A stretch of DNA of 64,000 nucleotides, taken from positions 62,001-126,000 of the forward strand of contig VCJN01002475.1 of assembly GCA_006384855.1 (NCBI GenBank), in the 5' to 3' direction. A program made the position numbers and the translations under genes. The notes beneath the pieces are model-generated. The model was not told where the DNA came from, did no database searches, and was given only the letters and a program-made list of their open reading frames with translations. Shown piece by piece: positions 1,646 to 61,216 of this stretch. Positions within the stretch are counted from its first letter, which is position 1, and the number at the start of each line of letters is the position of its first letter. The stretch is from Tetraselmis striata. Its lineage: Eukaryota > Chlorophyta > Chlorodendrophyceae > Chlorodendrales > Chlorodendraceae.

Positions 1646-2060
1646 TCTTAGGGCCCATTTAATTTGGGGACCTAACGGTAATAGGTACCCGTATTTACAG
1701 AGTCTCCTCTGTTATCAGCCGAAGGAATAGTAGACAATTGCCGGTCAGTTATGGGTTCAATTACAAATGGGTTCTGTCGTTCTCTCAGCATGGTCGTCGG
1801 CTATTCCGAGGCGGTATTTATACCCGCGAGGAATTCCTGACTAGTATACTCGTAATGTGATGTGATGCAGCTACGGTGTCACGGTGTGCTGTGCCGCAGC
1901 ATCCGTCATATCCGCGTGCGCGTGAAGAACGGGACAGCCAAGCCCTTCCGGGTCGGCTAGGGTTAAAGCTAGGGTTCCATACCCGGTTGAGACCACAGGC
2001 AGGGCACCTGATTGGTTAGGGTTCCATGCCCTGGCCATAGCCCTGAGCGAGGCGCAAGGA
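1646..2060 (-). mobile_element. Probable LTR portion of the left-edge element
   Basis: The stretch starts at the primer-like motif. On the minus strand it has a TATA-like block at about 1813-1822, positioned like the TATA block in the 17,687 LTR. The outer boundary was not found and no second copy is in the window. The boundary bases are not a clean CA, so the edge is approximate. Confidence 0.35.
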
Positions 2061-3694
2061 GACATACATACCGGAGATCAGAGACCCGCCCTAGCACACC
2101 TAGGCGGGACTTCTAAGGGAACTCAGATAGTACCTCTAATCGGGACCTCTAAGGTAGACTACCTGCAGAAGACCAAGTACTGTACTGCTGCTGGTACAAG
2201 GCGCAAGACTCACTGTAGCCGCGGCCGAGTAGTAGTATAGGACTTAATGAGTACAATTAGACAAGGGCAGTGCGTAATGCGTCTGGCGCGCGTGCTATTA
2301 GCACTTAGCGTGACGTGCGGCCGCCTTGCCATGGCCGCCTCCGCCTTCTGGCGGTCCCTCTTCCCCCTTGTCTTGCCTGTGTGTGCCTGTGTGTGCCTGT
2401 GTTTGCCTATGACAGGCATAGGCAAGAGCCTGTGTACGGGACGGAGACGGTGTAAGAGACGGAGATCGGCTTGAGGAACGAGGGCCAAAGGTAATCACGG
2501 TAGCCTGCGTGCTTGTCGTACGGTCGCACGCGTGCTGCTCGCTGCATCGTGCGCGCGCGCTGCTAGTGGTGCTGGGTTGTCACCATTCGACCCGGTACCG
2601 ACGTAAAGTACTGTAGGAACGGTTGATAGCCGCGACCAGCACTGCATAAAGTACTGCATTGCGTGGCAGTGACCTGTGGAGAGAGGCTTCATTGCCACTG
2701 GCATTCACCCCCCTGAGTACGGGCAAGACCAGCAACGCTGGTCTGAACTAAAGCCCTATAGGCGTCTGAGAGGTGCCTGTAGTGACTTAGGTTCGCGTTC
2801 AGACAAGGGGGAAGAGCTCTCGTGGGTGAGAGTGAGTGCTAGAGGTGAGGAAAGGTCTAAGGGGTGTTGGAGACAAACCTATATGGGAACTGCTCGTAAG
2901 AGTACATAAGACTCGAAGGGTGAGGGGACAAAACCCACTAGAGGGTGGGCCAGGAAGGCCCTCGGACTAGTGAGGTGACGAGGTGTGGAGTGGTTCGAGT
3001 TTCCTTTTGGGTTTGGTGACGAGCGAGAGGTAAAGGGTTTGCCACCTCTGGGGACATTTTGTGTTTGTGCCTGAGCGAGCCGTGAACAACGGGGCATTGA
3101 GTGGACGAAGGGCACTAACGCCAAGCTAAGTGTGTTGCTGAGTGGCTCTTTCACCCAGCGCGGCCTCTGAGTGAGAGCCACGGCGTGCCGACGCTCTTTC
3201 ACCATCCCGCGGGAGGTGAGAGAGCGGCGTGTTCCTTTGGGTACCAATTGGCCTGCTCCGGTTCTTTTGGCCTGCTCCGGTTCTTTTGGCCTGCTCCAGT
3301 CCAACGACATGCTCCAGTTCAACGGTTCAACGACGACAGGTGATAGGAAGGAGGCAGGGCGTGAGCCCGGGAGTGGGAGGGCGCCGGCTTCACAGTCGTG
3401 TGTCAGTGCCGGAGTGCACTTGGAGGGAGCGGCATCGCCGCCTGAGGGCCCCGGCGAGGGTGACGGCTGGCGGGTGCGTGGCTCAGCTCGGTGCCAACCT
3501 CTTCGTGGCGGTGGAGTGGATCTGAGGTTCATCGGCACTGAGTTATACCGGACGTTGGAACTGTTCGTGTATCGGCTTGAGACGGGTGTGCGCCAACACC
3601 GGCGAGGCGACGCGGCAGCGGCCCTCAGATTTCTGAGGCCGCGTGCACGCAGCCCCACTTCTGAGCTTGAGGGCCCCGGCGTGGGCGACGGCCA
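2061..3694. other. Non-coding leader or unassigned sequence before Gypsy Gag
   Basis: No domain is recognisable. There is a short triplication of a GGCCTGCTCCGGTTCTTTT unit at about 3250-3297. By eye, no direct-repeat partner was found downstream of 10,800 that would mark Gypsy LTRs, so the 5' end of that element is not defined. The open minus-strand reading at 2879-4054 is low-complexity and antisense to Gag. Confidence 0.4.
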
Positions 3695-6121
3695 GTGGAC
3701 GCGCTGGAAAGCGCAGAGGGCGGCTTTGCCCTGGGCGACCTGTGGGCAGCACTGGACGAGCTGGAGGAAGACCAGCTGATTGAGGAGGTCGTGGAAGGGC
3801 TGCTGAACGACGTAGACGCATCCAACCAGGAGGGTGAGGAGTGCGATCACGAGAACGCGTACGCATACAACATCAGCGAAGCAGAGGACAGCGGAGACGA
3901 CGAGGACGAGCTCTACTTTTCCCCGCTGCCAACACGCAACCCTAGGCGAGACACTTTGTACGGACACGCGTACTTTGTGGACGACGCAATGAGCGACGAT
4001 GAGATGGAGCCGCGGAGGGGCAAGGGCTCCAACGGGAGGTTGTGGGCGGGTCACGAGAAGGCGACCTCAGAGCACACGTTTGAGACGTGGAAGAACTCTA
4101 CGGACTGTGCCATGGAGAAGGAGCAACAACATGCATTTGACCGCAACAGACCGTTCAACGAGATCCACGAGGTTCACGTGCTGCGGAGCCGCATTCAGCC
4201 AAAGTACTTGGAGTCGCCAGAGACTACACTCATCAGCCGGGGCATCAAGTACGAGGACTCGAGGATCGCACGGAGGCTGGAAGGCGCAGAACGGCTCGAC
4301 TACTACCGCCGGTTGTTGGACGGCATGTGGGAGGAGCTCGTCAACATCACCAAGCAGATCGAGCTGCATTCGGAGCGGTACAGCAAGTGCCATCGCTCGC
4401 TTGGTGAGACTGTGCGCGAGTTCCGCAATCTGTTGCTAACGCACACCAGGGTCAAGAACCTGGTCACCGAGGAGACGACACGCATTGTGGAAATATCGCG
4501 CGTCAACGTGGAGTTCATCGAGCGGGCCTGGGACAAGACGCGTTTCAGCCCCCGCATCAAATTCGCACAACAACAACTCGTGGACTACACGATGGACACC
4601 CACGTGGACAGGACCTGGGAGATGGCTGAGTGGCTCGACAAGCAGGAGCGTGGCAGCATTCACGTGCGCGCTCACTCGCGCGTCGGAGAGGGTGACAACT
4701 ACCATCGACGTGGAGGTGGAGGAGGTGATCGTGGAGGCGGGCGCATGGAGAGGAGCGCTTACGCCCGTGATGGAGATGATGGTGGGCGAGGCAGCCACGT
4801 CAATGAGGCAGGTTGCTATGGTTGTGGGTCGAAAGATCACTACAAGAGCGACTGCCCTCTATGGAGCAAGACGTGCTCGGAGTGTGGCAAGAAGGGCCAC
4901 ATTGCCAAGCGGTGCTGGAAGGCCAACCCTAATCTCCGTCCGGAGACCGCCATGGCAGCAACCAATCCCAGGGAGCACATCAGAGTGCGCGAGGAGCCCA
5001 AGAAGCCGGACCGCAAGTCGTGCATGATGTGTGGCAAGGATGCGGGCCATACAACTGAGGAGTGCGGGAAGCTGCGCAAGTTCGTTGCGAACATGCAGGC
5101 GACAGACGGCCACGAACCCAAGCACCCGCTGCTCAACGGCTATGCTCAAGTCGTCGACAGAGAGGAGGGCGAGGTGGTGGGGCTGGCAGCAGCCAGCCAG
5201 TTGCGCCCCCAGCGTAAGAGCACGGAGGCTCAACGCCATGGCGTCAACACGGTGCGCATGGAGGACGGGGAGCGTGAGGCCAGGCAGCGGAGGCTGCCTC
5301 GCGGCTTCACCACCCCATCGATGGAGATGGCGCAGCAAATGCACAGCCGTACAGAGCTGACGGCGAAGCTCACCAGCGCAGCACAGAGCGTCACAGTGCA
5401 TGTGTCGCGGGCCAACGGCGGTGGACAGCCGCGCATGCCACTGATGGAGATCGCCAAGCGGCTGGTCAAGCACGAGCCCGTGGAGGATGGCTGGGAGAAG
5501 CATGCTGTCATGCGTGCTATGGAGAGCAAGCGAGTCTCCATCAGCTTGATGGAGGCTTACCAGCTCGAGCGCAGCGGCGGCGGGATGATGGAGAGCGTCA
5601 TGGCAACAGCATGGGGCGGCGGTGCCCTGAGTACCGAGCCGATCAGCAGCCACGCTCACTCAGCCAGGACCTCGAGCGAGGAGCGCGCCTTCGAGGCAGC
5701 GCTGATGATGGTGGAGGAGGTCGCCGACCAGCAAAGCGGCGGCAAGTCTACCGCGGAGGAGAAGACCTCTGGCGGAGAGGCTGAGACTGAACGGTCTTTC
5801 GCCGTTTACCGGCCAGGTCAACTCGCGAGACAACGCGAGGAGGAGGAAGATCGCAAGCGTGCAAATGCGCAGCGCAATGCCAACACGGCGGTTGAGGAGG
5901 CATCAGTATGTCGCCCCAGCGGCAAGTGGGAACCCGCCACTGACTATCGACGCAGTGCCACTGAGGCAGACATCAGGGAGCAAGCACTACGGCTGCCCAA
6001 AGGGTCTGAGACCCGACGCTGCCTGGAACAGCAGGCGGAAGTCGCCAACAAGGGCATTTTTGCCCTTCAGCCCACGGGGGCTGAGGCGAAGGAGCAGCCG
6101 GACGGAGACGGCTCGGCTTGA
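3695..6121 (+). CDS. Gypsy Gag with three CCHC knuckles
   Basis: This is a long open frame of about 808 codons, nominally from a GTG. The first in-frame ATG is at 3989, but the codons before it already look coding, so the true start may lie upstream or be lost. The N-terminal third is acidic, the middle helical. A Gly/Arg-rich segment precedes two canonical C-x2-C-x4-H-x4-C knuckles (about 4813-4855 and 4876-4917) and a third with one extra residue (about 5020-5064). Gag coats the RNA in the virus-like particle; CCHC knuckles bind nucleic acid. The C-terminal third is low-complexity, rich in Ala, Glu and Arg. The frame ends at TGA 6119-6121, where the next frame is already open. Confidence 0.8.
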   Translation: MDALESAEGGFALGDLWAALDELEEDQLIEEVVEGLLNDVDASNQEGEECDHENAYAYNISEAEDSGDDEDELYFSPLPTRNPRRDTLYGHAYFVDDAMSDDEMEPRRGKGSNGRLWAGHEKATSEHTFETWKNSTDCAMEKEQQHAFDRNRPFNEIHEVHVLRSRIQPKYLESPETTLISRGIKYEDSRIARRLEGAERLDYYRRLLDGMWEELVNITKQIELHSERYSKCHRSLGETVREFRNLLLTHTRVKNLVTEETTRIVEISRVNVEFIERAWDKTRFSPRIKFAQQQLVDYTMDTHVDRTWEMAEWLDKQERGSIHVRAHSRVGEGDNYHRRGGGGGDRGGGRMERSAYARDGDDGGRGSHVNEAGCYGCGSKDHYKSDCPLWSKTCSECGKKGHIAKRCWKANPNLRPETAMAATNPREHIRVREEPKKPDRKSCMMCGKDAGHTTEECGKLRKFVANMQATDGHEPKHPLLNGYAQVVDREEGEVVGLAAASQLRPQRKSTEAQRHGVNTVRMEDGEREARQRRLPRGFTTPSMEMAQQMHSRTELTAKLTSAAQSVTVHVSRANGGGQPRMPLMEIAKRLVKHEPVEDGWEKHAVMRAMESKRVSISLMEAYQLERSGGGMMESVMATAWGGGALSTEPISSHAHSARTSSEERAFEAALMMVEEVADQQSGGKSTAEEKTSGGEAETERSFAVYRPGQLARQREEEEDRKRANAQRNANTAVEEASVCRPSGKWEPATDYRRSATEADIREQALRLPKGSETRRCLEQQAEVANKGIFALQPTGAEAKEQPDGDGSA

Positions 6122-6465
6122 CACCATCACGTGCGAGTTGCACGTCAACAATACCCTGTTGCAGTGTGAGACCATCTCCGACGGCGGCAGCAGCCACACC
6201 CGCATGAACGCGTCAGCGATGGAACCAAGCGCGGCGGAGGCCGTGGTGAAGGGCGCTGGCGGGTGGGTAGACGTCGACATGGTGGTGGTGCTCGCCAATG
6301 GCAAGCGCTCATGCGAGCAGCAACGACGATTGCGGGATGGCGTGGTCTTCACGCTTCGGGACCCCATCACCTCAATCATGGCAGCTCATCACGCACCGCG
6401 CGTGTACGAGAATGGAGGCGAGGCACCGGGCTTGCTGCTTGGTGGACCCACCATCACAGCCCTCC
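6120..6465 (+). pseudogene. Gypsy aspartic-protease-like region
   Basis: In the frame +1 relative to Gag, a stretch after the Gag stop reads ELHVNNTLLQ, then ISDGGSSHTRMN, and later LLLGGPTI. The layout (beta strand, D-x-G-A/S-S-H, then a terminal L-L-L-G-G) follows retroviral-type aspartic proteases of Gypsy elements. The catalytic D-T/S-G is replaced by D-G-G, which would not be expected to work. The frame is lost near 6,450-6,465, where a coding-like reading resumes in the next frame. Identification is by position and pattern only. Confidence 0.45.
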
Positions 6466-6537
6466 GGGCTGCGACCGGACCCGGCGACCAGAATCTGCAC
6501 TTTCCGCGCACCCAACCGACCAGCCGGCAGAGTGCCA

Positions 6538-7870
6538 CTGCTCAGTCAAACGGCGTGGGAACGGCGGGTCCGCGAGCACCAACCTGTGGTGCGCGTGGAG
6601 AGAGCGAGCTACTGCCATGGGGTGGAGCTCGGCGATGATGAGATGGGGGAGGAGAGTGGGGGGGGCAGTGACGTGTCTCACAGCCACGCCGCCCACGAAC
6701 CCTCACGGCGTGACGTGCAAAAGTCCAAGACCTGCGAGCCGGCAGACCTACCGCCTTTGCGGGATGTGCAGAGCCTGCAGCGTCACGGGCTGGCGAGGCT
6801 GAGCACCCGCGAAGAGGGCATCAGCCTGTACGAGCCATGTGGCGGAGGCTACGTTGCCGTGCTGAATGCCATGCTGGCCAACGGTCAGAAGGTGGCCAGA
6901 TACCGGCATTCGGACATCGACCCGGCAGCCCGCAAGGCCGCTGGGCAACGTGTTCAAGGAGCTCAGTAGGAGATATCCGGATCTACTACCAGCTAGCGCG
7001 ATCAAGGGGTGGGACTCGTTCCCACAGGACATCACGGCGATCACAGCGGAGGACGTGAGGCGCCTGCCATACATAGACATAGTGGGGTGTGGATGGCCTT
7101 GCCCAGGCATGAGCAGAGCCAATCGCAACGCGCTGGGATTGCGCGACCGGAGGTCACGTTTGCTCTTTCACGTGGCCGCGTTCATCGAGAAGCTCGAGGA
7201 GAAGCAGCCCACCGGCGTGGGGTGGCTGTTGGAGAACGTGGATACGAGCGGAGACGAGAGACTGTACATCAAAGAGTCTGAGAAATACATCACGAAGATC
7301 ATCGGGAGAGCGCTCGTGATTGATGAGGCGGGCTGTGGAGCGAATCATCACCGAGTGCGACGATTCTGGACGAACATGGGGGACGTGGAGAGACTGAAGT
7401 TGGCGTGGGAGAGGCGGGCGGACATGCAGCCACGACTGCTGCGAGAGGTGCTGCCACCGCACCTACGGCCGCATGTCAATCTGCCGACACCACCCAACGG
7501 AGTTCGCGTCAACAAACCGGGGCAGCCACGCGCGTTGCCAACGATCTTGGCGCGATCGGACACAGATGCCTACTCCGGCGAGGGGGCCGGCATGTTGTTC
7601 AACATCAACACGGGCGAGTGGGAACGGCCCACTGTCCACCTGAAGGAGGAGCTTTTCGGTTACGAGCCGAACGTAATTCACGGCATATCGCTGCCGGACC
7701 ATGAGCGCCTCATAGGCAATGCCATGGGTCTGCACAGGGTAGCGTGGATCGTCGGGCAGCTCTTCGTGGAGCAGCAGCGACTGAGGGACTTGGAGGAGCT
7801 GGAGCGCGCAGCTCGGGCTGCCCAGGCAGCTCAGCGCGCGGAACGAGAGAGACGAGATCAACGCAGGATG
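6538..7870 (+). pseudogene. C5-cytosine DNA methyltransferase domain inside Gypsy Pol
   Basis: Two abutting frames give one methyltransferase. Frame one (to about 6,935) carries a motif-I-like ISLYEPCGGG and the following YRHSDIDPAA, the AdoMet-binding loop and acidic strand. Frame two carries motif IV as GCGWPCPGMSRAN with the catalytic Pro-Cys, motif VI as WLLENV, motif VIII as HHRVRRFWTNM and motif X as LIGNAMG. Pro-Cys not followed by Gln, the LLFH segment after motif IV and the RFWTNM block are closer to the DNMT3/DRM layout than to bacterial PCQ enzymes. The expected activity is transfer of a methyl group to C5 of cytosine. A +1 frame change at about 6,935 splits motif I from motif IV, so this copy is broken unless it is recoded. 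An Arg/Glu/Ala-rich tail follows motif X. Confidence 0.82.
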
Positions 7871-8105
7871 CAGAGATCCTGCGGGAGAGCATGGCAGCAG
7901 CTGTGTCAACAGGCGCTATGCTGCTGGCTGCTGCTCATTTGGTTGGGCGGCACGTCAATGCACTTCTGCGAGGCGAGTCGTCTCGGCAACACCACGGTGT
8001 TAGCCATGTTCGTGGCAGTGATGGTGCGCGCGAGCGCGCGCTACCGCCGCGAGGTGACGGCGACAAGCAGGGCGGGGCGCCGAGCTTTCGGCGCCAACGC
8101 CGTGC

Positions 8106-9002
8106 GTGTCGGACGGCGGCGGGACTGCGCAACGGAGTAGCGCTGCTGCGTGGGCCAATCGTGGCTACACGCAGGCAAGTATGAATGATCACGTGGAGGA
8201 TGTTCGCAGCCTGAAGGATCCTGAGAAACACTGGCGGTGCGGGCGCGAGTGCGAGGCTTCACAGCAACGACAGCTAGTGGAGCTCTGCGACAGCTTTTGG
8301 GATGACGTGTGGGTGTGGTCCGTCAGCGACCTACCGGCCGTCAACCACTGGGAGTTCAGGATACCGACGACCAACACGCAGCCCATCAAGCGACCCAAGT
8401 ACCGATTGAGCAAGACTGAGTGGGACTTCGTGGACAGCTGGTGCAAGGAGCTGTTGGCAGCTGGGGCGATCCGCGAGAGCCAATCTCCCTACAGCATCCC
8501 AGTAGTGTGTCCACCGAAGAAGGACGACGACGGCAACTGGACCGGGATCCGGGTGTGTTTGGACGCTCGCCCGTTGAACAGGGTCACTGAGTCGTGGGCG
8601 TATTGTATGCCCAAGACAGACGAGCTACTCAGCAAGGTCGCAGGCGCGCGCATGTACAGCGGGTTTGACGCCAAGTTGGCGTTTCATCAACTGCCCATCG
8701 CAGAGGAGGACAGACACAAGACTGCCTTTTGGGGCAGCGACCGGCAGTATGATTGGTGCCGGATGGCGATGGGCTTCAAGAACGCCAGCCAAGCATGGCA
8801 GCGTGTCATGGATGAGGCCCTTGGCGATCTGCCGTTCGTGGCGGTTTACGCCGATGACATCTGTGTCTTTTCAGGCGCAGCCGAGATGAGCGACGCTGAG
8901 GTGTTTCATCAGCACCTTCAGCATTTGGAGACGGTGTTTCAGAGGCTCGCAAAGGCGGGCATCAGACTGGCGCCCGGCAAGGGGCGCATGGCCGTGAGGT
9001 AG
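8106..9002 (+). pseudogene. Gypsy reverse transcriptase, cut by an in-frame TAG
   Basis: The reading covers the N-terminal RT fingers (KRPKYRLSKTEWDFVD), the SPYSIPVVCPPKK block, the RVCLDARPLNRVT block, GFDAKLAFHQLPI, the FGLK-equivalent MAMGFKNASQAWQRVMD and the catalytic VAVYADDICVFSG (about 8838-8876). It polymerises cDNA from the element RNA. A plausible start is ATG 8181; an earlier ATG at 8106 overlaps the end of the methyltransferase frame by 35 bp. TAG at 9000-9002 interrupts the conserved segment just before FLGH. It is one substitution away from GAG, and the same frame continues without shift. Confidence 0.88.
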
Positions 9003-10799
9003 ATTGCTTTCTTGGGCCATTGGGTCGACGGCGAAGGCGTATTCCCGCAGCACTCCAAGGTGGAGGCTGTGGTGAAGATGCCGCCGCCAACTGACGTTGC
9101 GGGGCTTTGGCGCTTCCTCGGCATGGTGGGCTACTACGGCAAGTTCATCGAGCAAGTTGCAGTCAAGCGCAAGCCGCTGACCAAGCTCACCGGCAAGGTG
9201 CCGTGGGAGTGGGGATCGGAGCAGCAACGAGCCTTCGAGCAGCTCAAGGCAGACCTGGTTTCAGCTCCCGTGCTGAGAAATCCGGATTGGAGCCGCCCTT
9301 TCATCCTGCACACCGATTTCAGCGGAGCTGGATTGAGCGCGGTGTTGGCGCAGGAGGACGACGAAGGACAGGAGTACGTGGTGGAGTTTGCGAGCCGCAC
9401 CTGCCAAGGCGCGGAGCCAAACTACGCCAGCTATGAGGGTGAGTGTCTTGCCATGTTGTATGGCATGGACAAGTTCAGATACTATCTGTTTGGCAGGCAG
9501 TTTGTGGTGGTGACAGATCATCGGCCTTTGGAATGGCTGATGAACACCGCTCAACTTCGTGGGAAGTTGGCGCGGTGGGCGATGAGGCTCAGCGAGTACG
9601 ACTTCGTGGTTCGCTATCGGAAGGGCGTTCACCACGTCAACGCATATTGTCTGAGTCGGGGGCCCGTGGAGGGCGACCCAACGGAGCTGGATGGGCGCGG
9701 TGAGTTTTCACCGGAGGGCACCGTGCGACATGCGGCAGCCTTTTGGTGCGCAACGGCTCAGAGCAGCCGGCAGCCGGAGCTGTCAACATGGGCGCGACGC
9801 CGAGTGCTGGACACCGCCCGTGAGGGCACGTCCGACGGCGACTTGGTGGCGGTTACCGGCGAGCTGACGGCGGGACCGCGGAGAGGCGATCCGTGGATGG
9901 ACGCGGAGGCGATGGCGGAGCTCCAGGCGGGCAACGTCAACATGCCGCAACCTTATGCCCGCTATACATGGAGAAACAACATCTTGTGGTATTTACACAA
10001 GGACGGCACGCACCGCGAGGTACCGCTACCCAGTGAGCGAGACACCGTGATTATGGATGTGCATGTCAAGATGGGCCATTTGGGGCGGGATCGGCTGCGC
10101 AGTGTTATCGCCGCTTCATATTTCTGGCCAGGGATGGTGGAGGATGTAGCCCGAGTCAAGAAGGCGTGTCCGGACTGCGATCGGCTGCAACATCGACCCG
10201 GCGGCACCAGCGGTCGCCCAAAGGCAGCCTCACCGCTGGACATGCAGCCGCTGCCGCACTTCGGCATGTTCTACCGCTGGTACTTGGACTTGGCGGGGCC
10301 TTTTGAGGCCACCCGCAGTCGCAACGTCTGGGTGTTGGTGATGGTGGAAGCGGCGAGCAAGTGGGTGGAGTTGGTGCCGCTGCGCACCAAGGAGGCAGCC
10401 AACATACGACAAGCCTTTCAAGAGAGAGTGCTGGCGCGTTTCGCGGCGCCAGGCGAGGTGTGTACCGACGGCGGTACCGAGTTCAGCGGCGAGTTCCACG
10501 AACTTCTCGTGGAGCATGACATCGATCATCCGAAGCCGCTGCCCTATCATCCGCAGCCCAATGGGTTGGCGGAAGGGATGGTAAAAACAGTCAAGGAGGC
10601 ACTGATGCGCTATGTGGTTCAGCCCGGCAAGCGCGTCGTGTGGGACACTTTTCTGCCTTCCATCGAGCTGGGCTACCGCTGCAGAAAGCAAGCCAGCACC
10701 AGGTACAGCCCATACGAGTTGGTGTACGGCAGGGCGCCCGTGTTTCCCGCGCAGGCGAGAGCGCTCTTTGAGGAGAGCGCCGTGGACTTCAACAGTTGA
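9003..10799 (+). CDS. Gypsy RT thumb, RNase H and integrase
   Basis: This continues the RT frame directly after the TAG. It begins with IAFLGHWVDGEGV (RT thumb/connection). RNase H follows with FILHTDFSGAGLSAVL, the YEGECLAMLYG Glu and VVVTDHRPLEWL, covering the catalytic acidic residues. The integrase has an HHCC finger (VKMGHLGRDRL to CPDCDRL, about 10,055-10,190), then the core Asp in WYLDLAGPF, the second Asp in CTDGGTEF and the Glu in NGLAEGMVKT. The frame stops at 10,797-10,799 soon after the GRAPVFP block. The usual C-terminal tail and any chromodomain are missing, so the 3' end is probably truncated. Confidence 0.88.
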   Translation: MAFLGHWVDGEGVFPQHSKVEAVVKMPPPTDVAGLWRFLGMVGYYGKFIEQVAVKRKPLTKLTGKVPWEWGSEQQRAFEQLKADLVSAPVLRNPDWSRPFILHTDFSGAGLSAVLAQEDDEGQEYVVEFASRTCQGAEPNYASYEGECLAMLYGMDKFRYYLFGRQFVVVTDHRPLEWLMNTAQLRGKLARWAMRLSEYDFVVRYRKGVHHVNAYCLSRGPVEGDPTELDGRGEFSPEGTVRHAAAFWCATAQSSRQPELSTWARRRVLDTAREGTSDGDLVAVTGELTAGPRRGDPWMDAEAMAELQAGNVNMPQPYARYTWRNNILWYLHKDGTHREVPLPSERDTVIMDVHVKMGHLGRDRLRSVIAASYFWPGMVEDVARVKKACPDCDRLQHRPGGTSGRPKAASPLDMQPLPHFGMFYRWYLDLAGPFEATRSRNVWVLVMVEAASKWVELVPLRTKEAANIRQAFQERVLARFAAPGEVCTDGGTEFSGEFHELLVEHDIDHPKPLPYHPQPNGLAEGMVKTVKEALMRYVVQPGKRVVWDTFLPSIELGYRCRKQASTRYSPYELVYGRAPVFPAQARALFEESAVDFNS

Positions 10800-11221
10800 T
10801 GGGCCGCCCATTGAGCTGGTGACAGCGCCCCACGTGGGAATGCGAGCATGCGACGGCAGCTGTCTAGAAGCAACCAGAAAATTAAGGAAACACTTCTGTT
10901 AACTTAGCCCAGTAACTATATGGCATATTTATGCCACAGCACTTAGTACCGGATTCCCAATGTATAGGAAACTCGGTATAGACTAGCATCAGGCAGGACA
11001 CGGTACCGTAGATACTCGTAGTCGCTAATAGCCAGTCTACTAGGTCTATCTAGCGGTACAATATATACATGGCTGGAGTATACGGAATACTACACTTCAC
11101 CGCCGGCCCGCCTCCTCCGTTCCATCGCGGCGTCTCCCTTAATGACGCTATTGACGCACAGCTCCGGTGGTTTACCGCGGAGGGCTGAAGACTAGTTCAC
11201 GTCGGAGCCTTAGAGCCCGGG
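10800..11221. other. Junction without recognisable gene
   Basis: AT-richer sequence lies between the Gypsy Pol stop and the decayed DIRS RT. No LTR, polypurine tract or target duplication was recognised. Confidence 0.4.
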
Positions 11222-12703
11222 GTGACGATGAGTCGCTACGTGATGTGGAGAGTTTTCCTAGTTCCGAAGCCGGGCAACAACAACTGGCGCCTCGTAATCG
11301 ACATGCGCCAGGTCAACCTCTGCGGTACGGTCTACAACATGAGGTTCGAGACGCTCCGGCGCTTGCGCTGCCTAGCGACCCAGGGCGGCCGGGCGTTCTT
11401 TTTCGACATGTGCATGACGGTTGCTGCGCCTTGGGGCTGGGAGAGGACGTCCGGGACTATTTCACGATCAACGTACGCGGCACCCTCTGGCGCTTCGTCG
11501 CGCTACCCATGGGTTGGTCCCTCAGCCCCTCCTACTACTACGCGGCACCCTCATCTGCGAGATGATGCGCTACCTCCGTCAACCGGCCTCGCGGCCTACG
11601 CGCGGTCCACATCATGTCTCTTGCTGTGACGTTTGCGTCGTCGCAAGGCGCGTTTTCAAGGTCTGCATGCGGCTCTTCGTCGGCGATTTCTAGTTCCTAT
11701 AGCCTCGTCCCGCTAGATGGCGCTACGACTACGCGCGATGGTGCACCGCATGTGGGGGCGTCTAGGCCTCGCCCGCCACCCCACCAAGGCCCACCCCGAG
11801 CCTACCCACCGTCTCCAACACATGGGGTTGTGGATCGACCAGACCGAGATGCGTTTCTACGCCCCGCCCAACAAGCTCCGCCGGTTGGCCGCGCTCGCCA
11901 CGACATGCTATGCCGCGTGCTTGCTCGCCTCGCTAACGGGGCGGAAGTGGCAGCTTCTTTAGCTTCCTATTCCGCCGGCGCGCTATACATATTGCGGGAG
12001 GCGCACAACGTCCTAGGCTGTTGCTCGGCGTCGGACGGGGATGTGAAACTGGCGCGCCTAAAGTGGTGGCGCGATGTCCGACTCTGCGCAATGGCGCCCT
12101 GATTTTGCGGCCCGTGGAGTCTTCCCACATGCCCACCGTTTCCAGCCAGAACGCACGGCTCGGGTGTTGTGCTGAACGAGCCCGCGGAGGCGCGTGGATT
12201 CTAGTACAAAGAATACGATCGGCGGCAAAACATCACGTACAGGGAGCCGAAAGCGGTACGTCTCGCGGTACATGCCTTTCTCCCTTACTCAGCTAGCCGG
12301 CCACAATGTCGTGTTGCACAAGGACAACCAGGCGGTAGTCCACGTGCTATCCAACATTACGTCCCGCTCCACAGTACTCATGGCAGAGTTACGGAAGCTA
12401 TGGTATTTACTGGACGTACACGACATCCATATACGAGTTCGGTTCATCCGTGGCGCGGCGAACACGTGGGCGGACATGCTGTCAAGCGTGGTGGATTTGG
12501 CGATCAATTCTCGTATTTTCCAGTACGTCGACATGTTGTGGGGTCGGCACACGGTAGACCGTTTCGATACCATAGAGAACCGCCATGTACCCTGGTACAA
12601 TTCTCGATGGCGAGACCCTCTTTCCGAGGCGGTCGACTCCCTCTCCTTACCAGACGACTCGTGGCGCGGCAAAGTGAACCGGTGCAATCCCCCTTCGGCT
12701 TGA
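11222..12703 (+). pseudogene. Decayed DIRS-type reverse transcriptase and RNase H
   Basis: Pieces in several frames read as one protein. RVFLVPKPGNNNWRLVID is the RT palm start, and WRFVALPMGWSLSPSYYY (next frame) the FGL block. GRLGLARHPTKAHPEPT and then MGLWIDQTEMRFY correspond to the thumb. The RNase H has VVLHKDNQAVVHVLSN and VRFIRGAANTWADMLS, followed by HTVDRFDTIENRHVPWYN, which is typical of the RNase H C-terminus of DIRS/PAT elements. Frameshifts near 11,420-11,520 and 11,700 and loss of the YLDD box mark it as a relic. It does not belong to the 24-30 kb element, which is on the other strand. Confidence 0.7.
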
Positions 12704-17686: not shown

Positions 17687-18531
17687 TGTCACAGCCCCCT
17701 TAGGACTTAGCCTGAATAGTCGTCTAGCCATAGATAGTCCTAAAGCAGGAGCTGAGTCAAGGGCCCATTGCTGGATCGTTATTCCACACGGCCAGGAATA
17801 ATGAGCAGAGATTTGGGAAAAGGGATTCTTACAGTACCGGAATGCCGGTAACCTGGGTGACTGGCCCGGCGGTGGTTTTGCCGGCCTATTTATAGTCGCT
17901 GGTTTCCGTCATTCCGTGCGCTGTGTACCGATCCAATTTCCGCCACCTGTGCTGCGTCTAACTACTAGACTTCTACTATAATCGACGTGTACGGTCCTAA
18001 CCCGCGGCCCGTCGCTATTTTAGTCACACACTACTAAGTACAGACACGGTTGCTAGCACCTTCGTCTGTCCGCAGCACAGTGATATAATATCTTACTACT
18101 ATTGCTATAGCAAGTGCTATAGCATTCTAGATAGTTCTAGTAGGCTCTAGTACCTACTACTAACACTCCACTAAGGCAGCGCTCCATCTCACGCTTGGTA
18201 TCATCATCCTCTAGCAGGTGACACCATAGCGTACGACAATCGCGCTCCTGCTGGTACGCAGGCGTAAGTACAGGTTACTCGCACCCCATGTGGGTACTCG
18301 TAATACTGTCATGCACTACTAATCGCCTGGTAGTCGCTCGTACTGACGCCTCGTCGTCCTCGTACCAGTACTTCGCCTTCACTTGTACTCGCACTCGCAA
18401 TGCTCATACTCGTACAGTACTTCGCTTGGCTTGTACTCGTTCTCGTCCGGCGACGTCCGCCTCAGTCGCCAGTTCTTCGCTCCTTCGTCGGCTCCCACAG
18501 TACAAAGTACAGCAGTGTAGAGTACATAACA
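17687..18531 (-). repeat. LTR (3' LTR in minus orientation)
   Basis: Starts TGTCACAG and ends TACATAACA. It has a TATA-like block at 17,886-17,895 that reads CTATAAATAG on the minus strand, about 200 bp from the LTR end, fitting a U3-R-U5 layout. The only difference noticed from the other LTR is C at 18,157 against T at 20,819. Confidence 0.9.
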
Positions 18532-20348: not shown

Positions 20349-21193
20349 TGTCACAGCCCCCTTAGGACTTAGCCTGAATAGTCGTCTAGCCATAGATAGT
20401 CCTAAAGCAGGAGCTGAGTCAAGGGCCCATTGCTGGATCGTTATTCCACACGGCCAGGAATAATGAGCAGAGATTTGGGAAAAGGGATTCTTACAGTACC
20501 GGAATGCCGGTAACCTGGGTGACTGGCCCGGCGGTGGTTTTGCCGGCCTATTTATAGTCGCTGGTTTCCGTCATTCCGTGCGCTGTGTACCGATCCAATT
20601 TCCGCCACCTGTGCTGCGTCTAACTACTAGACTTCTACTATAATCGACGTGTACGGTCCTAACCCGCGGCCCGTCGCTATTTTAGTCACACACTACTAAG
20701 TACAGACACGGTTGCTAGCACCTTCGTCTGTCCGCAGCACAGTGATATAATATCTTACTACTATTGCTATAGCAAGTGCTATAGCATTCTAGATAGTTCT
20801 AGTAGGCTCTAGTACCTATTACTAACACTCCACTAAGGCAGCGCTCCATCTCACGCTTGGTATCATCATCCTCTAGCAGGTGACACCATAGCGTACGACA
20901 ATCGCGCTCCTGCTGGTACGCAGGCGTAAGTACAGGTTACTCGCACCCCATGTGGGTACTCGTAATACTGTCATGCACTACTAATCGCCTGGTAGTCGCT
21001 CGTACTGACGCCTCGTCGTCCTCGTACCAGTACTTCGCCTTCACTTGTACTCGCACTCGCAATGCTCATACTCGTACAGTACTTCGCTTGGCTTGTACTC
21101 GTTCTCGTCCGGCGACGTCCGCCTCAGTCGCCAGTTCTTCGCTCCTTCGTCGGCTCCCACAGTACAAAGTACAGCAGTGTAGAGTACATAACA
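20349..21193 (-). repeat. LTR (5' LTR in minus orientation)
   Basis: Second copy of the 845-bp LTR at a constant offset of 2,662 bp. In minus orientation it should carry the element promoter, with the TATA-like block at about 20,548-20,557. Confidence 0.9.
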
Positions 21194-59473: not shown

Positions 59474-59499
59474 TTTCAAAGTTGAGTCTGGTTTTGCCA
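59474..59499 (-). repeat. Split direct repeat B1
   Basis: Abuts A2 without a gap and matches 59,169-59,194. Confidence 0.75.
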
Positions 59500-59552
59500 G
59501 TCTTGAGCGAACGGAGAGAGCGGTGGATTGACGGAGAAGGGGTAGCGCCAAG

Positions 59553-61180
59553 TCATGAAGGAGGCACTGGGAAGGCCACCGCTGCGGAGTCCTGTTGGAC
59601 TTGGAAGTGGCGGAGAGGGGCGATGTGTCCAAAGAAGAACCACGCGCCAGGAGAAGGAAGAACGTTGGGGTCGATGTAGTCCAGAACGACATCAGAGTTA
59701 GTGGCCCAACCGCCCTGGTAGCGGATGTGGGACAGTGGCGCTCCAATGGCGTTTGCTGCAGAGGCTGCGCCCTTGCGTAGACTGTGTGAAGTCCAGGAAG
59801 TGCCAGCAGGGGGGCAGCGTTGACTAGGTTGACTGCTGTAGACAACCAGTCTGACATCGTAGTAGCAGTCCAAGGTTTCGACTGCTCAGCCACATTGACA
59901 GCCCAGAAGTTGGAGGTAGCCAAGCCAACAGTAACTAGGGGGACAGACTGGACGTTGTCGATGAAGTAGCGCAAGAGACGTGCCACTCGAGGGTGCTCGG
60001 ACACTGGAAGGAGAAGTACGCGCAGGTCGTCAGGTCCCCGCCGGCCGGCGCGACCCTTCTCGCGGTAGATCTGCAAGGTGATGTTGTAGGTGTCGACATG
60101 CACATCTTGCACTCGACAGGAGACGCCAGTAAGGCCCCTGGCAAAGAACAGGAAGTTGACAACCGAGGCCAAGAGGGCTCGGTAGTCGAGGTGGGACTCT
60201 GGGTAAGGAGCATACACAATTAGCTCGGCCTTTGAGACGAAGCGGTAAGCTACATCCGCAGGCAGAGGGACACGCAAAGGGGCAGCGTCCAGTCGACGCT
60301 GACGTAACATTAACCCACGTCTTGCCGAAGTGAGGTGTAGGCTGTCCTTGGCGATCGGGACGAGGTTGTGCAGCTCGAAGAAGGTGTTGATGGCAGACAG
60401 ATAGGGCTGCAGCGACTTATTAGCTGCGATATGCCCTCGCTCCCCGATCCAGGCAACGTACCGAACAACAGTAGCAGTAGTCGCCTCTAGCGGGCTGATG
60501 TTCTCGGAGTCGTGGCAGAACTCAGCGAACTGAGCCAACCTGCCGGCGTAGCTCTTGAGGGTCTGAGCGCTGAGGGAGCTGGAGAGCAGGTCGAGCGTCC
60601 GCTGGCCTAGCTCGTCTGAGCCGAACGCGTCCTGTAGTCGGGATCGCAGTGACGCAGCCCACGGAGCGATAGCTGCGGGCTCGTCGATTACGTAAGTGCG
60701 TCGTTTTACTGACAGAGTGCCACCGGGACGGCTACTGTTCGCAAAGTACTCGGCAGCAGCGGTTAGGTTCCCGGCGGTTGGCCGGTAGTTGCTGGACGGG
60801 TTTGCAGTAGCTCCAGTACGGGTTTGCGGGGCTAGGTTCAGGTAGGAGGGCCGCCCCGCGCGCCCTTCGCGCTCATAGCGCCTGTCCCGTGCGTAACGTA
60901 CACGCGCGAAACTTGGTCGTTGCGAACCGGTTGTAACTCGTAGTGTAACAACCGACGAACGCAGAGATGGGGTTGTAAGAAAGGCGGATGGTTGAGCCGC
61001 CATGTGCAGGTGTGCGGATGGTTGAGCCGCACTCGGCTGTAGCTGTAAGAAACGCCGCACCGAGGAAGGTCTAAATGAAGTCTGAAGGTGGGGGGGGTCA
61101 GGTCCTGACACATGGCGCTCATCCCGTCGTTGAGCTGCAAGGGTGCGCCTTGCGGCGGTCACCGAAAGGTGGCCTCGCAA
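59553..61180 (-). pseudogene. Tyrosine recombinase, frameshifted before HxxR
   Basis: The frame from 61,180 (no clear ATG) has a low-complexity start, then the recombinase N-terminal domain (LSAQTLKSYAGRLAQFAEFC, VRYVAWIGERG). The catalytic domain has FLFFARGLTGVSCRVQDV with the first Arg, and REKGRAGRRG. At about 59,800 the frame is lost. The neighbouring minus frame (to 59,553) continues with TSHSLRKGAASAANA (H-x-x-R), SHIRYQGGW and the nucleophile region VVLDYIDP. All catalytic motifs exist but not in one frame, so this copy needs a repaired indel or is dead. Unlike the recombinase at 25 kb it keeps the His of HxxR. Confidence 0.82.
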
Positions 61181-61216
61181 GGCTCCTGCAGCTCCGACGA
61201 ACGGCGCCCCACACCG

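Follow-up and report, generated by a model that had tools for sequence, protein, structure and literature searches.

A cytosine-5 DNA methyltransferase spanning a conserved frame junction in a Ty3/Gypsy-type retrotransposon family of the green alga Tetraselmis striata

The 64,000-nucleotide stretch of Tetraselmis striata DNA analyzed here (contig VCJN01002475.1 of assembly GCA_006384855.1, positions 62,001 to 126,000; hereafter the window) contains a damaged copy of a Ty3/Gypsy-type retrotransposon family that carries a cytosine-5 DNA methyltransferase (DNMT) ahead of its reverse transcriptase (RT). The DNMT proper occupies approximately 6808-7780, inside the segment 6538-7870 where a previous interpretation of the letters alone (the sequence-only reading) had placed a cytosine-5 DNMT within a green-algal Ty3/Gypsy Pol. 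Our analysis supports this placement, as PF00145 was matched above its cut-off of 22 bits, DNMT3A and DNMT3B were the best relatives, and RVT_1, RNase H and integrase domains were found downstream. The DNMT is divided between two open reading frames (ORFs): motifs I-II close ORF1 and motifs IV-X open ORF2 in the +1 frame, with an overlap of 101 nt. The features of the window copy are given below, L029 and L030 being two further copies from the same genome.

1892-2802 (+): A repeat (5' terminal repeat), starting TGCCGCAG and ending GTTCAG
3671-6118 (+): gag part of ORF1 with zinc knuckles (CCHC near 4811-4858), a stop-to-stop ORF; PF00098, E 1.7e-5
6119-6530 (+): protease-like stretch with D-G-G, read by eye, in the same frame as ORF1 of other copies
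6808-6966 (+): N-terminal half of the DNMT, motifs I-II, at the end of ORF1, in the frame of 6298
6967-6969 (+): TAG stop of ORF1, presumed +1 frameshift junction
6866-8140 (+): ORF2 of the window copy, with DNMT motifs IV-X at 6956-7780 and then a linker; PF00145, 24.2 bits
8106-9002 (+): RT, RVT_1 at 8514-8987, E 1.2e-20; an ORF of its own in this damaged copy
within 9012-10799 (+): RNase H at 9285-9599, PF17917, 2.2e-34
within 9012-10799 (+): integrase H2C2 at 10029-10193, PF17921, 5.6e-13
within 9012-10799 (+): integrase rve core at 10272-10529, PF00665, 8.3e-9
10796-10797 (+): junction at which approximately 1.45 kb of L029/L030 (PHD finger and C-terminal methyltransferase-like domain) is missing
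10809-10859 (+): B repeat; similarity stops at 10862, with no A-B after it

Damage to the window copy takes the form of breaks in ORF1 and ORF2, the missing stretch of approximately 1.45 kb and the lack of a 3' A-B. Positions 5315-10795 align to L029 2855-8326, and 10798-10862 to L029 9779-9843. A search of the T. striata genome with a 424-aa DNMT query, in which 99 of 401 candidates were scored and some copies gave two or three rows, returned at least 108 match rows to the DNMT half. Among the rows listed, 33 of the 108, window included, covered query residues 1-414 or more at an identity of at least 96%, and 15 of the 108 lay in frames free of stops over 1753 aa or more, 11 of them exactly 1771 aa long. 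Below 96% identity stops were present in many rows, and a few at 80-92% were stop-free. A further 22 copies (L029, L030 and L031-L050), picked to span the divergence of the family, were fetched for comparison; one of them, L046, is without the upstream half, and copies with as little as approximately 85% nucleotide identity keep the same layout. The sequence-only reading had called for other copies with an open methyltransferase, and these were found in number, the catalytic half being open in many of them and under purifying selection.

The repeat structure was read from one copy, C1240 (L030 with its flanks L051 and L052), in which A (953 bp), the coding region, B (approximately 50 bp), A and B follow each other over approximately 11.5 kb. 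The two A repeats of C1240 are 100% identical over 161+527+265 bp, and thus this copy, the one examined, has moved recently. The A repeats are direct, as long terminal repeats (LTRs) are, but a B unit of 48-51 bp stands both before and after the 3' A, and a possible 3-bp target duplication (GAG) was seen, in C1240 only. The A repeat of the window is approximately 90% identical to L051 812-1500 and L052 1-792. At the start of L029 (2792-2856) an inverted B repeat is fused to a 5'-truncated coding region.

Regarding coding content, ORF1 of L030 (1129 aa) carries two zinc knuckles and extends to the motif I half of the DNMT, while ORF2 of L029 (1771 aa) comprises the DNMT, RVT_1, RNase H, H2C2, rve and PHD domains, the open DNMT frame running on into RT, RNase H and integrase. 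The order of RT, RNase H and then a DDE integrase, together with Ty3-G as the closest solved relative of this region of L029 (E 3.6e-76), places the element with Ty3/Gypsy by sequence. Membership in DIRS/PAT was ruled out by the rve (DDE) integrase, and the tyrosine recombinase family was found in neither ORF1 nor ORF2. The sequence-only reading had put the DNMT between protease and RT; the RT side holds, and the protease is a by-eye D-G-G stretch (near 6180-6200). C-terminal to the PHD finger lies a second domain (L029:8958-9713, DPWAGHG ... VTSPWF). The last 250 aa of L029 ORF2 match 53 of 120 listed Gypsy polyproteins (described below) at E 0.01 or better, and the signatures DPFAGSG and VTSPPF are often present in the matching domains. 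When 10 sequences of this domain were compared with Pfam, MethyltransfD12 appeared weakly in seven (best 1.7e-4), UPF0020 in five and N6_N4_Mtase in three, and a profile search of the PDB with it gave nothing below 0.14. We therefore call it methyltransferase-like and no more.

With respect to the class of the DNMT, the closest PDB relatives of the window half by sequence were DNMT3A (E 0.0012) and DNMT3B (0.0017), with M.HhaI at 0.37. A profile built from five element-borne DNMTs of the T. striata genome, that of the window among them, matched DNMT3A best (4.5e-14), followed by HaeIII (3.4e-9), HhaI (3.5e-9), DNMT2 (6.8e-9), entry 4onj, titled 'DNA methyltransferase' and presumably a DRM (0.0017), DRM2 (0.018, a partial match) and DNMT1 (0.27). 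The ORF2 frame holds motifs IV (GWPCPGMS), VI (ENV), VIII (HRVRRFW) and X (RLIGNAM), and motifs I/II (GISLYEPCGGG...RHSDIDP) stand directly upstream in the ORF1 frame. DRM enzymes have a rearranged order, with motifs VI-X ahead of I-V. Because the order I, IV, VI, VIII, X is kept here, the enzyme appears DNMT3-like and not DRM, and the best profile match agrees with assignment to the DNMT3 class. Of the DNMT3/DRM-like layout suggested earlier the DNMT3 part thus stands and the DRM part falls; likewise, the motifs do occur in order before the RT, as had been claimed, but the change of reading frame between motifs II and IV had been missed. All 12 protein matches of the window DNMT were labelled jgi/Tetstr1, which we take to be the portal of T. 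striata, a chlorophyte, and nothing was found when viral contigs were scanned with the window protein. A structure prediction of the ORF2 half (mean pLDDT 44.7), for which the input alignment misplaced the domain start, was not used.

The frame junction inside the DNMT is conserved in the family. In the 22 homologous rows (the window and 21 copies, L046 being left out as non-homologous there) the TAG of ORF1 is kept in all, and no indel occurs in 6920-6995 in 21, L037 having two single-base gaps. The tail of ORF1 and the head of ORF2 of L029 were aligned separately to 133 unbroken element DNMTs (120 Gypsy, eight Dualen-like and five Copia). The ORF2 head matched all 133. For the ORF1 tail, the lenient limit of E up to 1 gave 120 matches (115/120 Gypsy, 5/8 Dualen-like and 0/5 Copia), and 1e-3 or better gave 104 Gypsy, four Dualen-like and no Copia; the best match had 59% identity and E 2.6e-12 in this small set. 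Wherever both halves were matched (120/120; 115 Gypsy and five Dualen-like), they abut exactly through a single +1 step, with no residue missing or extra, and so both are by sequence homologous to one unbroken DNMT. The matches of the ORF1 tail in Dualen-like elements weaken it as evidence of kinship with Gypsy, while the abutment is unaffected. A profile places the frame switch approximately three codons upstream of the TAG (near 6955-6960). Together, the conserved stop and the exact abutment suggest that the complete enzyme is probably made by a +1 frameshift where gag and pol meet.

Selection was assessed against L029 under control for substitution type and CpG context, the young group consisting of eight copies including the window. 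In the catalytic half the young copies showed 24 synonymous (S) and 11 nonsynonymous (N) changes against 24.6 N expected (ratio 0.19, P < 0.001; 0.17 without the window copy), while the two wrong frames gave 1.56 and 3.16. The ratio was 0.56 in mid-age copies (P 0.001) and 0.69 in old ones (P 0.0035). The catalytic half is thus under purifying selection. In the protease-like stretch the values were 0.39 (P 0.08), 0.66 (P 0.09) and 0.9 (P 0.28) in young, mid-age and old copies, respectively.

Taken as a whole, we consider it fairly likely that the window copy is a damaged member of an approximately 11.5-kb split-repeat Gypsy family (A-coding-B-A-B) whose DNMT is completed by a +1 frameshift and acts within the particle. 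ORF1 would code for gag and for motifs I-II of a DNMT3-type enzyme, with a protease probably in between; ORF2 would supply motifs IV-X of the same enzyme, RT, RNase H, the DDE integrase, the PHD finger and the second methyltransferase-like domain. Ty3 of yeast uses a +1 gag-pol frameshift, and by analogy ribosomes most likely slip by +1 shortly before ORF1 ends, which would yield Gag-Pol and the whole DNMT together, in a low and constant proportion. Carried in the particle, the DNMT could then methylate freshly made double-stranded cDNA or the site of insertion, an idea that rests partly on a published proposal (PMC5890265), and the PHD finger might serve as a chromatin reader for integration. 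The frameshifting, the activity of the enzyme, and the methylation of cDNA with its benefit to the element are what we infer; the embedding, the multicopy family, the conserved frame layout, the selection on the catalytic half and the homology of the two DNMT halves to a single unbroken enzyme are shown by the data.

Several results weigh against this explanation. For the motif I half, the 4 S and 2 N of the young copies (ratio 0.28) fall short of significance (P 0.13), the ratio was 1.11 in mid-age copies (6 S, 11 N, 2 stops) and 0.81 in old ones, and 6640-6965 gave 0.74 (P 0.40) in young copies; the motif I half is too short for the test to decide. RNA downstream of the junction folded no better than shuffles (z +0.96; L029 only), and no slippery heptamer was recognized by eye at the junction. 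The protease had no Pfam match in the window ORFs, in ORF1 of L030 or in ORF2 of L029. Transitions were 1.12, 1.5 and 1.11 times as frequent at CpG as at other C/G sites in young, mid-age and old copies, respectively, and CpG observed/expected was 1.01; because no clear CpG decay was seen in the family copies, there is no sign of heavy 5-methylcytosine (5mC) there, nor a footprint of the self-methylation or evasion of silencing that the sequence-only reading had put forward as possible. Finally, retrotransposon DNMTs are capable of de novo CG methylation (PMC5890265), which counts in favour of the explanation, but that of SymbioLINE did not methylate DNA in yeast.

An alternative is that the enzyme remains split, translation of ORF2 starting at the 6866 ATG and the fragments (Gag-PR and Pol, PR being the protease) assembling in trans. 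M.AquI is a natural two-subunit C5 methyltransferase. The ATG follows immediately after a stop, and the retention of the layout (21/22 rows) and of the ORF1 stop (22/22) would also suit this arrangement. However, the overlap read in the ORF2 frame is without constraint (young 0 S/4 N, mid-age 4 S/9 N, old 6 S/20 N; none significant), and the ORF1 frame fits homologues to approximately three codons before its stop, so that we deem trans assembly unlikely. The DNMT may also be in decay: a single base altered in one master copy would have broken it, leaving the family to propagate an inactive methylase. The single +1 step is the sole difference in register from the unbroken homologues, and the lack of a methylation footprint and of significant selection on the motif I half agrees with such decay. 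On the other hand, such a break would cost the element its RT and integrase as well, unless ribosomes cross or circumvent the step, the youngest copies show selection on the catalytic half (ratio 0.19), and the layout is common to diverged copies; decay therefore appears quite improbable. The possibility that a DNMT gene of the host, or some unrelated element, merely adjoins or is nested in the window copy can be dismissed, because the arrangement recurs in many copies: the DNMT half was found in long open frames in 15 further places, that of L029 continues through to integrase, equivalent DNMTs occur in the 120 listed Gypsy polyproteins, no point in its favour emerged, and the methyltransferase confined to this one copy, which the sequence-only reading had named as the case against itself, was not what we observed.

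Among known systems the nearest is KnitGypsy-Dnmt3 of Klebsormidium nitens, which, according to the parts of de Mendoza et al. (2018; PMC5890265) covered here, shares DIRS-type A-coding-B-A-B repeats, Gypsy domains, a DNMT3-type DNMT in Pol and purifying selection on that DNMT. It differs in that the T. striata host is a chlorophyte and that the DNMT here stands between the protease-like stretch and RT, split by the ORF1/ORF2 junction; a frame junction in the DNMT is unmentioned in those parts. By its published description, and with the repeats taken from one copy, the window family thus fits the KnitGypsy-Dnmt3 type (Gypsy Pol, DNMT and A-coding-B-A-B) and would work in a similar way. SymbioDIRS-Dnmt3 and SymbioLINE-Dnmt of Symbiodinium, as presented in the same parts, are also multicopy retrotransposons carrying a cytosine DNMT, but are tyrosine-recombinase or LINE elements, unlike the DDE-integrase Gypsy described here. 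In passages of a hypothesis paper (PMC6338049) it is stated generally that green algae have DAM- or DCM-encoding Ty3/Gypsy and DIRS elements, with no element, layout or frame given in those passages. The part of PMC12344493 considered mentions, citing the 2018 paper, some DNMT3s embedded in Copia and DIRS elements, while that of PMC9998398 reports no DNMT3 in MMETSP green algae. No paper describing a chlorophyte DNMT-bearing Gypsy was found in the literature searched, a limited search beyond which one may be in print. Ty3 itself shares the RT-RNase H-integrase order and is the closest solved relative of L029. It is not known to carry a DNMT or a PHD finger, and its LTRs are plain.

A protein search with one Gypsy DNMT yielded 134 proteins from 5000 candidates, of which 120 are listed (P0022-P0141). 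These are DNMT-bearing Gypsy polyproteins, with the order RNase H, DNMT, integrase in 111/111 for which all three were located. They share with the window family a related DNMT and, in most of them, a PHD finger; the C-terminal methyltransferase-like domain is shared by the fraction given above. They differ in having the DNMT between RNase H and integrase in one frame, and in a motif IV that is mostly Glu-Cys where the window family has Pro-Cys: the cysteine is present in 120/120, preceded by Glu in 102/120 and by Pro in 13/120. This replacement beside the catalytic cysteine is an unusual change. Nine of the 120 listed rows bear a green-algal name or portal code, and 'chlorophyte' holds for those nine; the named hosts are Haematococcus lacustris, Scenedesmus sp. 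PABB004, Monoraphidium neglectum, Chrzof1 and Chlamydomonas eustigma. One row carries the name of a bacterial metagenome-assembled genome and is probably mis-binned. The earlier suggestion of a possibly independent capture is thus doubtful, given related DNMTs in Gypsy elements listed from several chlorophytes and a repeat layout equal to that published, in the parts considered, for the Klebsormidium element.

In addition, the T. striata genome holds related DNMTs in other retroelements. A genome scan with PF00145 scored 123 matches of 337 candidates, and 20 of the 123 places were fetched for their long open frames, a biased set; each of the 20 has a long ORF of 1405-2598 aa that includes a related DNMT. 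Six of the 20 were scanned with Pfam: five are Ty1/Copia (DNMT, gag-pre-integrase, rve and SH3), with a zinc knuckle in 4/5 and RVT_2 in four, the ORF of L026 being shorter, and one (L023) is of RVT_1 type. By our own grouping, L009-L022 and L024-L028 form three DNMT-carrying Ty1/Copia families, and the order zinc knuckle, DNMT, protease motif holds in the 18 of these 19 loci in which the motifs were located. The selection ratio of the DNMT was 0.43 in Copia-A (12 copies) and 0.13 in Copia-C (four of five copies). The LINE-like ORF of L023 (2-7795) carries RVT_1, PCIF1_WW, DNMT and RNase H, a type that we take to be Dualen-like; its nine polyprotein relatives (P0013-P0021) have RVT_1 and PF00145 in 9/9, PCIF1_WW in 8/9 and PHD in 2/9, and P0013 alone has a LINE-type endonuclease. 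Separately, L001 and L008 (also L002-L006), which are alike by eye in the case of the first two, hold a different C5 methyltransferase of approximately 325 aa at several high-scoring genome places, probably another mobile or viral element. By-eye reading also noted in L053 (C2009) a 630-aa cytosine methylase of bacterial-type look, possibly a contaminant contig or phage-like gene, and in L055 a single exon-like stretch; for these reasons both were left out as host DNMTs.

In a tree of 38 rows, including 20 hand-picked from the 120 Gypsy proteins and with DNMT3 represented by one partial DNMT3A row on a long branch, the Copia and Dualen-like DNMTs grouped together (99/96), as did the Gypsy DNMTs (99/99). 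The window family joined the latter moderately (87/77; 75/39 after removal of two distant outgroups). A grouping of the window DNMT with Copia, named after the first tree was seen, was rejected (p-AU 0.022).

A broader interpretation, which in our judgement is evenly poised between right and wrong, is that the gag-pol +1 frameshift cuts through the DNMT domain, which would tie its dose to Pol and restrict it to the particle. The family would represent one of at least three DNMT-bearing retroelement classes (Gypsy, Copia and Dualen-like LINE) in a single chlorophyte, all drawing on DNMT modules long present in green algae and exchanged among element classes; in Gypsy these would be joined by a PHD reader and another methyltransferase-like domain, of amino type. 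Earlier work described retrotransposon DNMTs in two lineages, each as its own acquisition; in this picture they would be a recurrent, selected part of several green-algal retroelement classes. If it is true that the DNMT is made only with Pol, it would act on cDNA or the insertion site and not on the genome at large, and the named chlorophyte hosts make such a role testable in cultured algae.

Elsewhere in the window, two ORFs from 10863-12703, past the truncated element, had no Pfam match at E 0.01, while by eye this region holds RT/RNase H-like frames resembling DIRS/PAT elements. An 845-bp direct repeat with 99.9% identity (17687-18531 and 20349-21193) possibly represents the terminal repeats of a young element. 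Finally, a tyrosine-recombinase-like protein (Phage_int_SAM_1, E 3.3e-7) is encoded at 59474-61216 (-).
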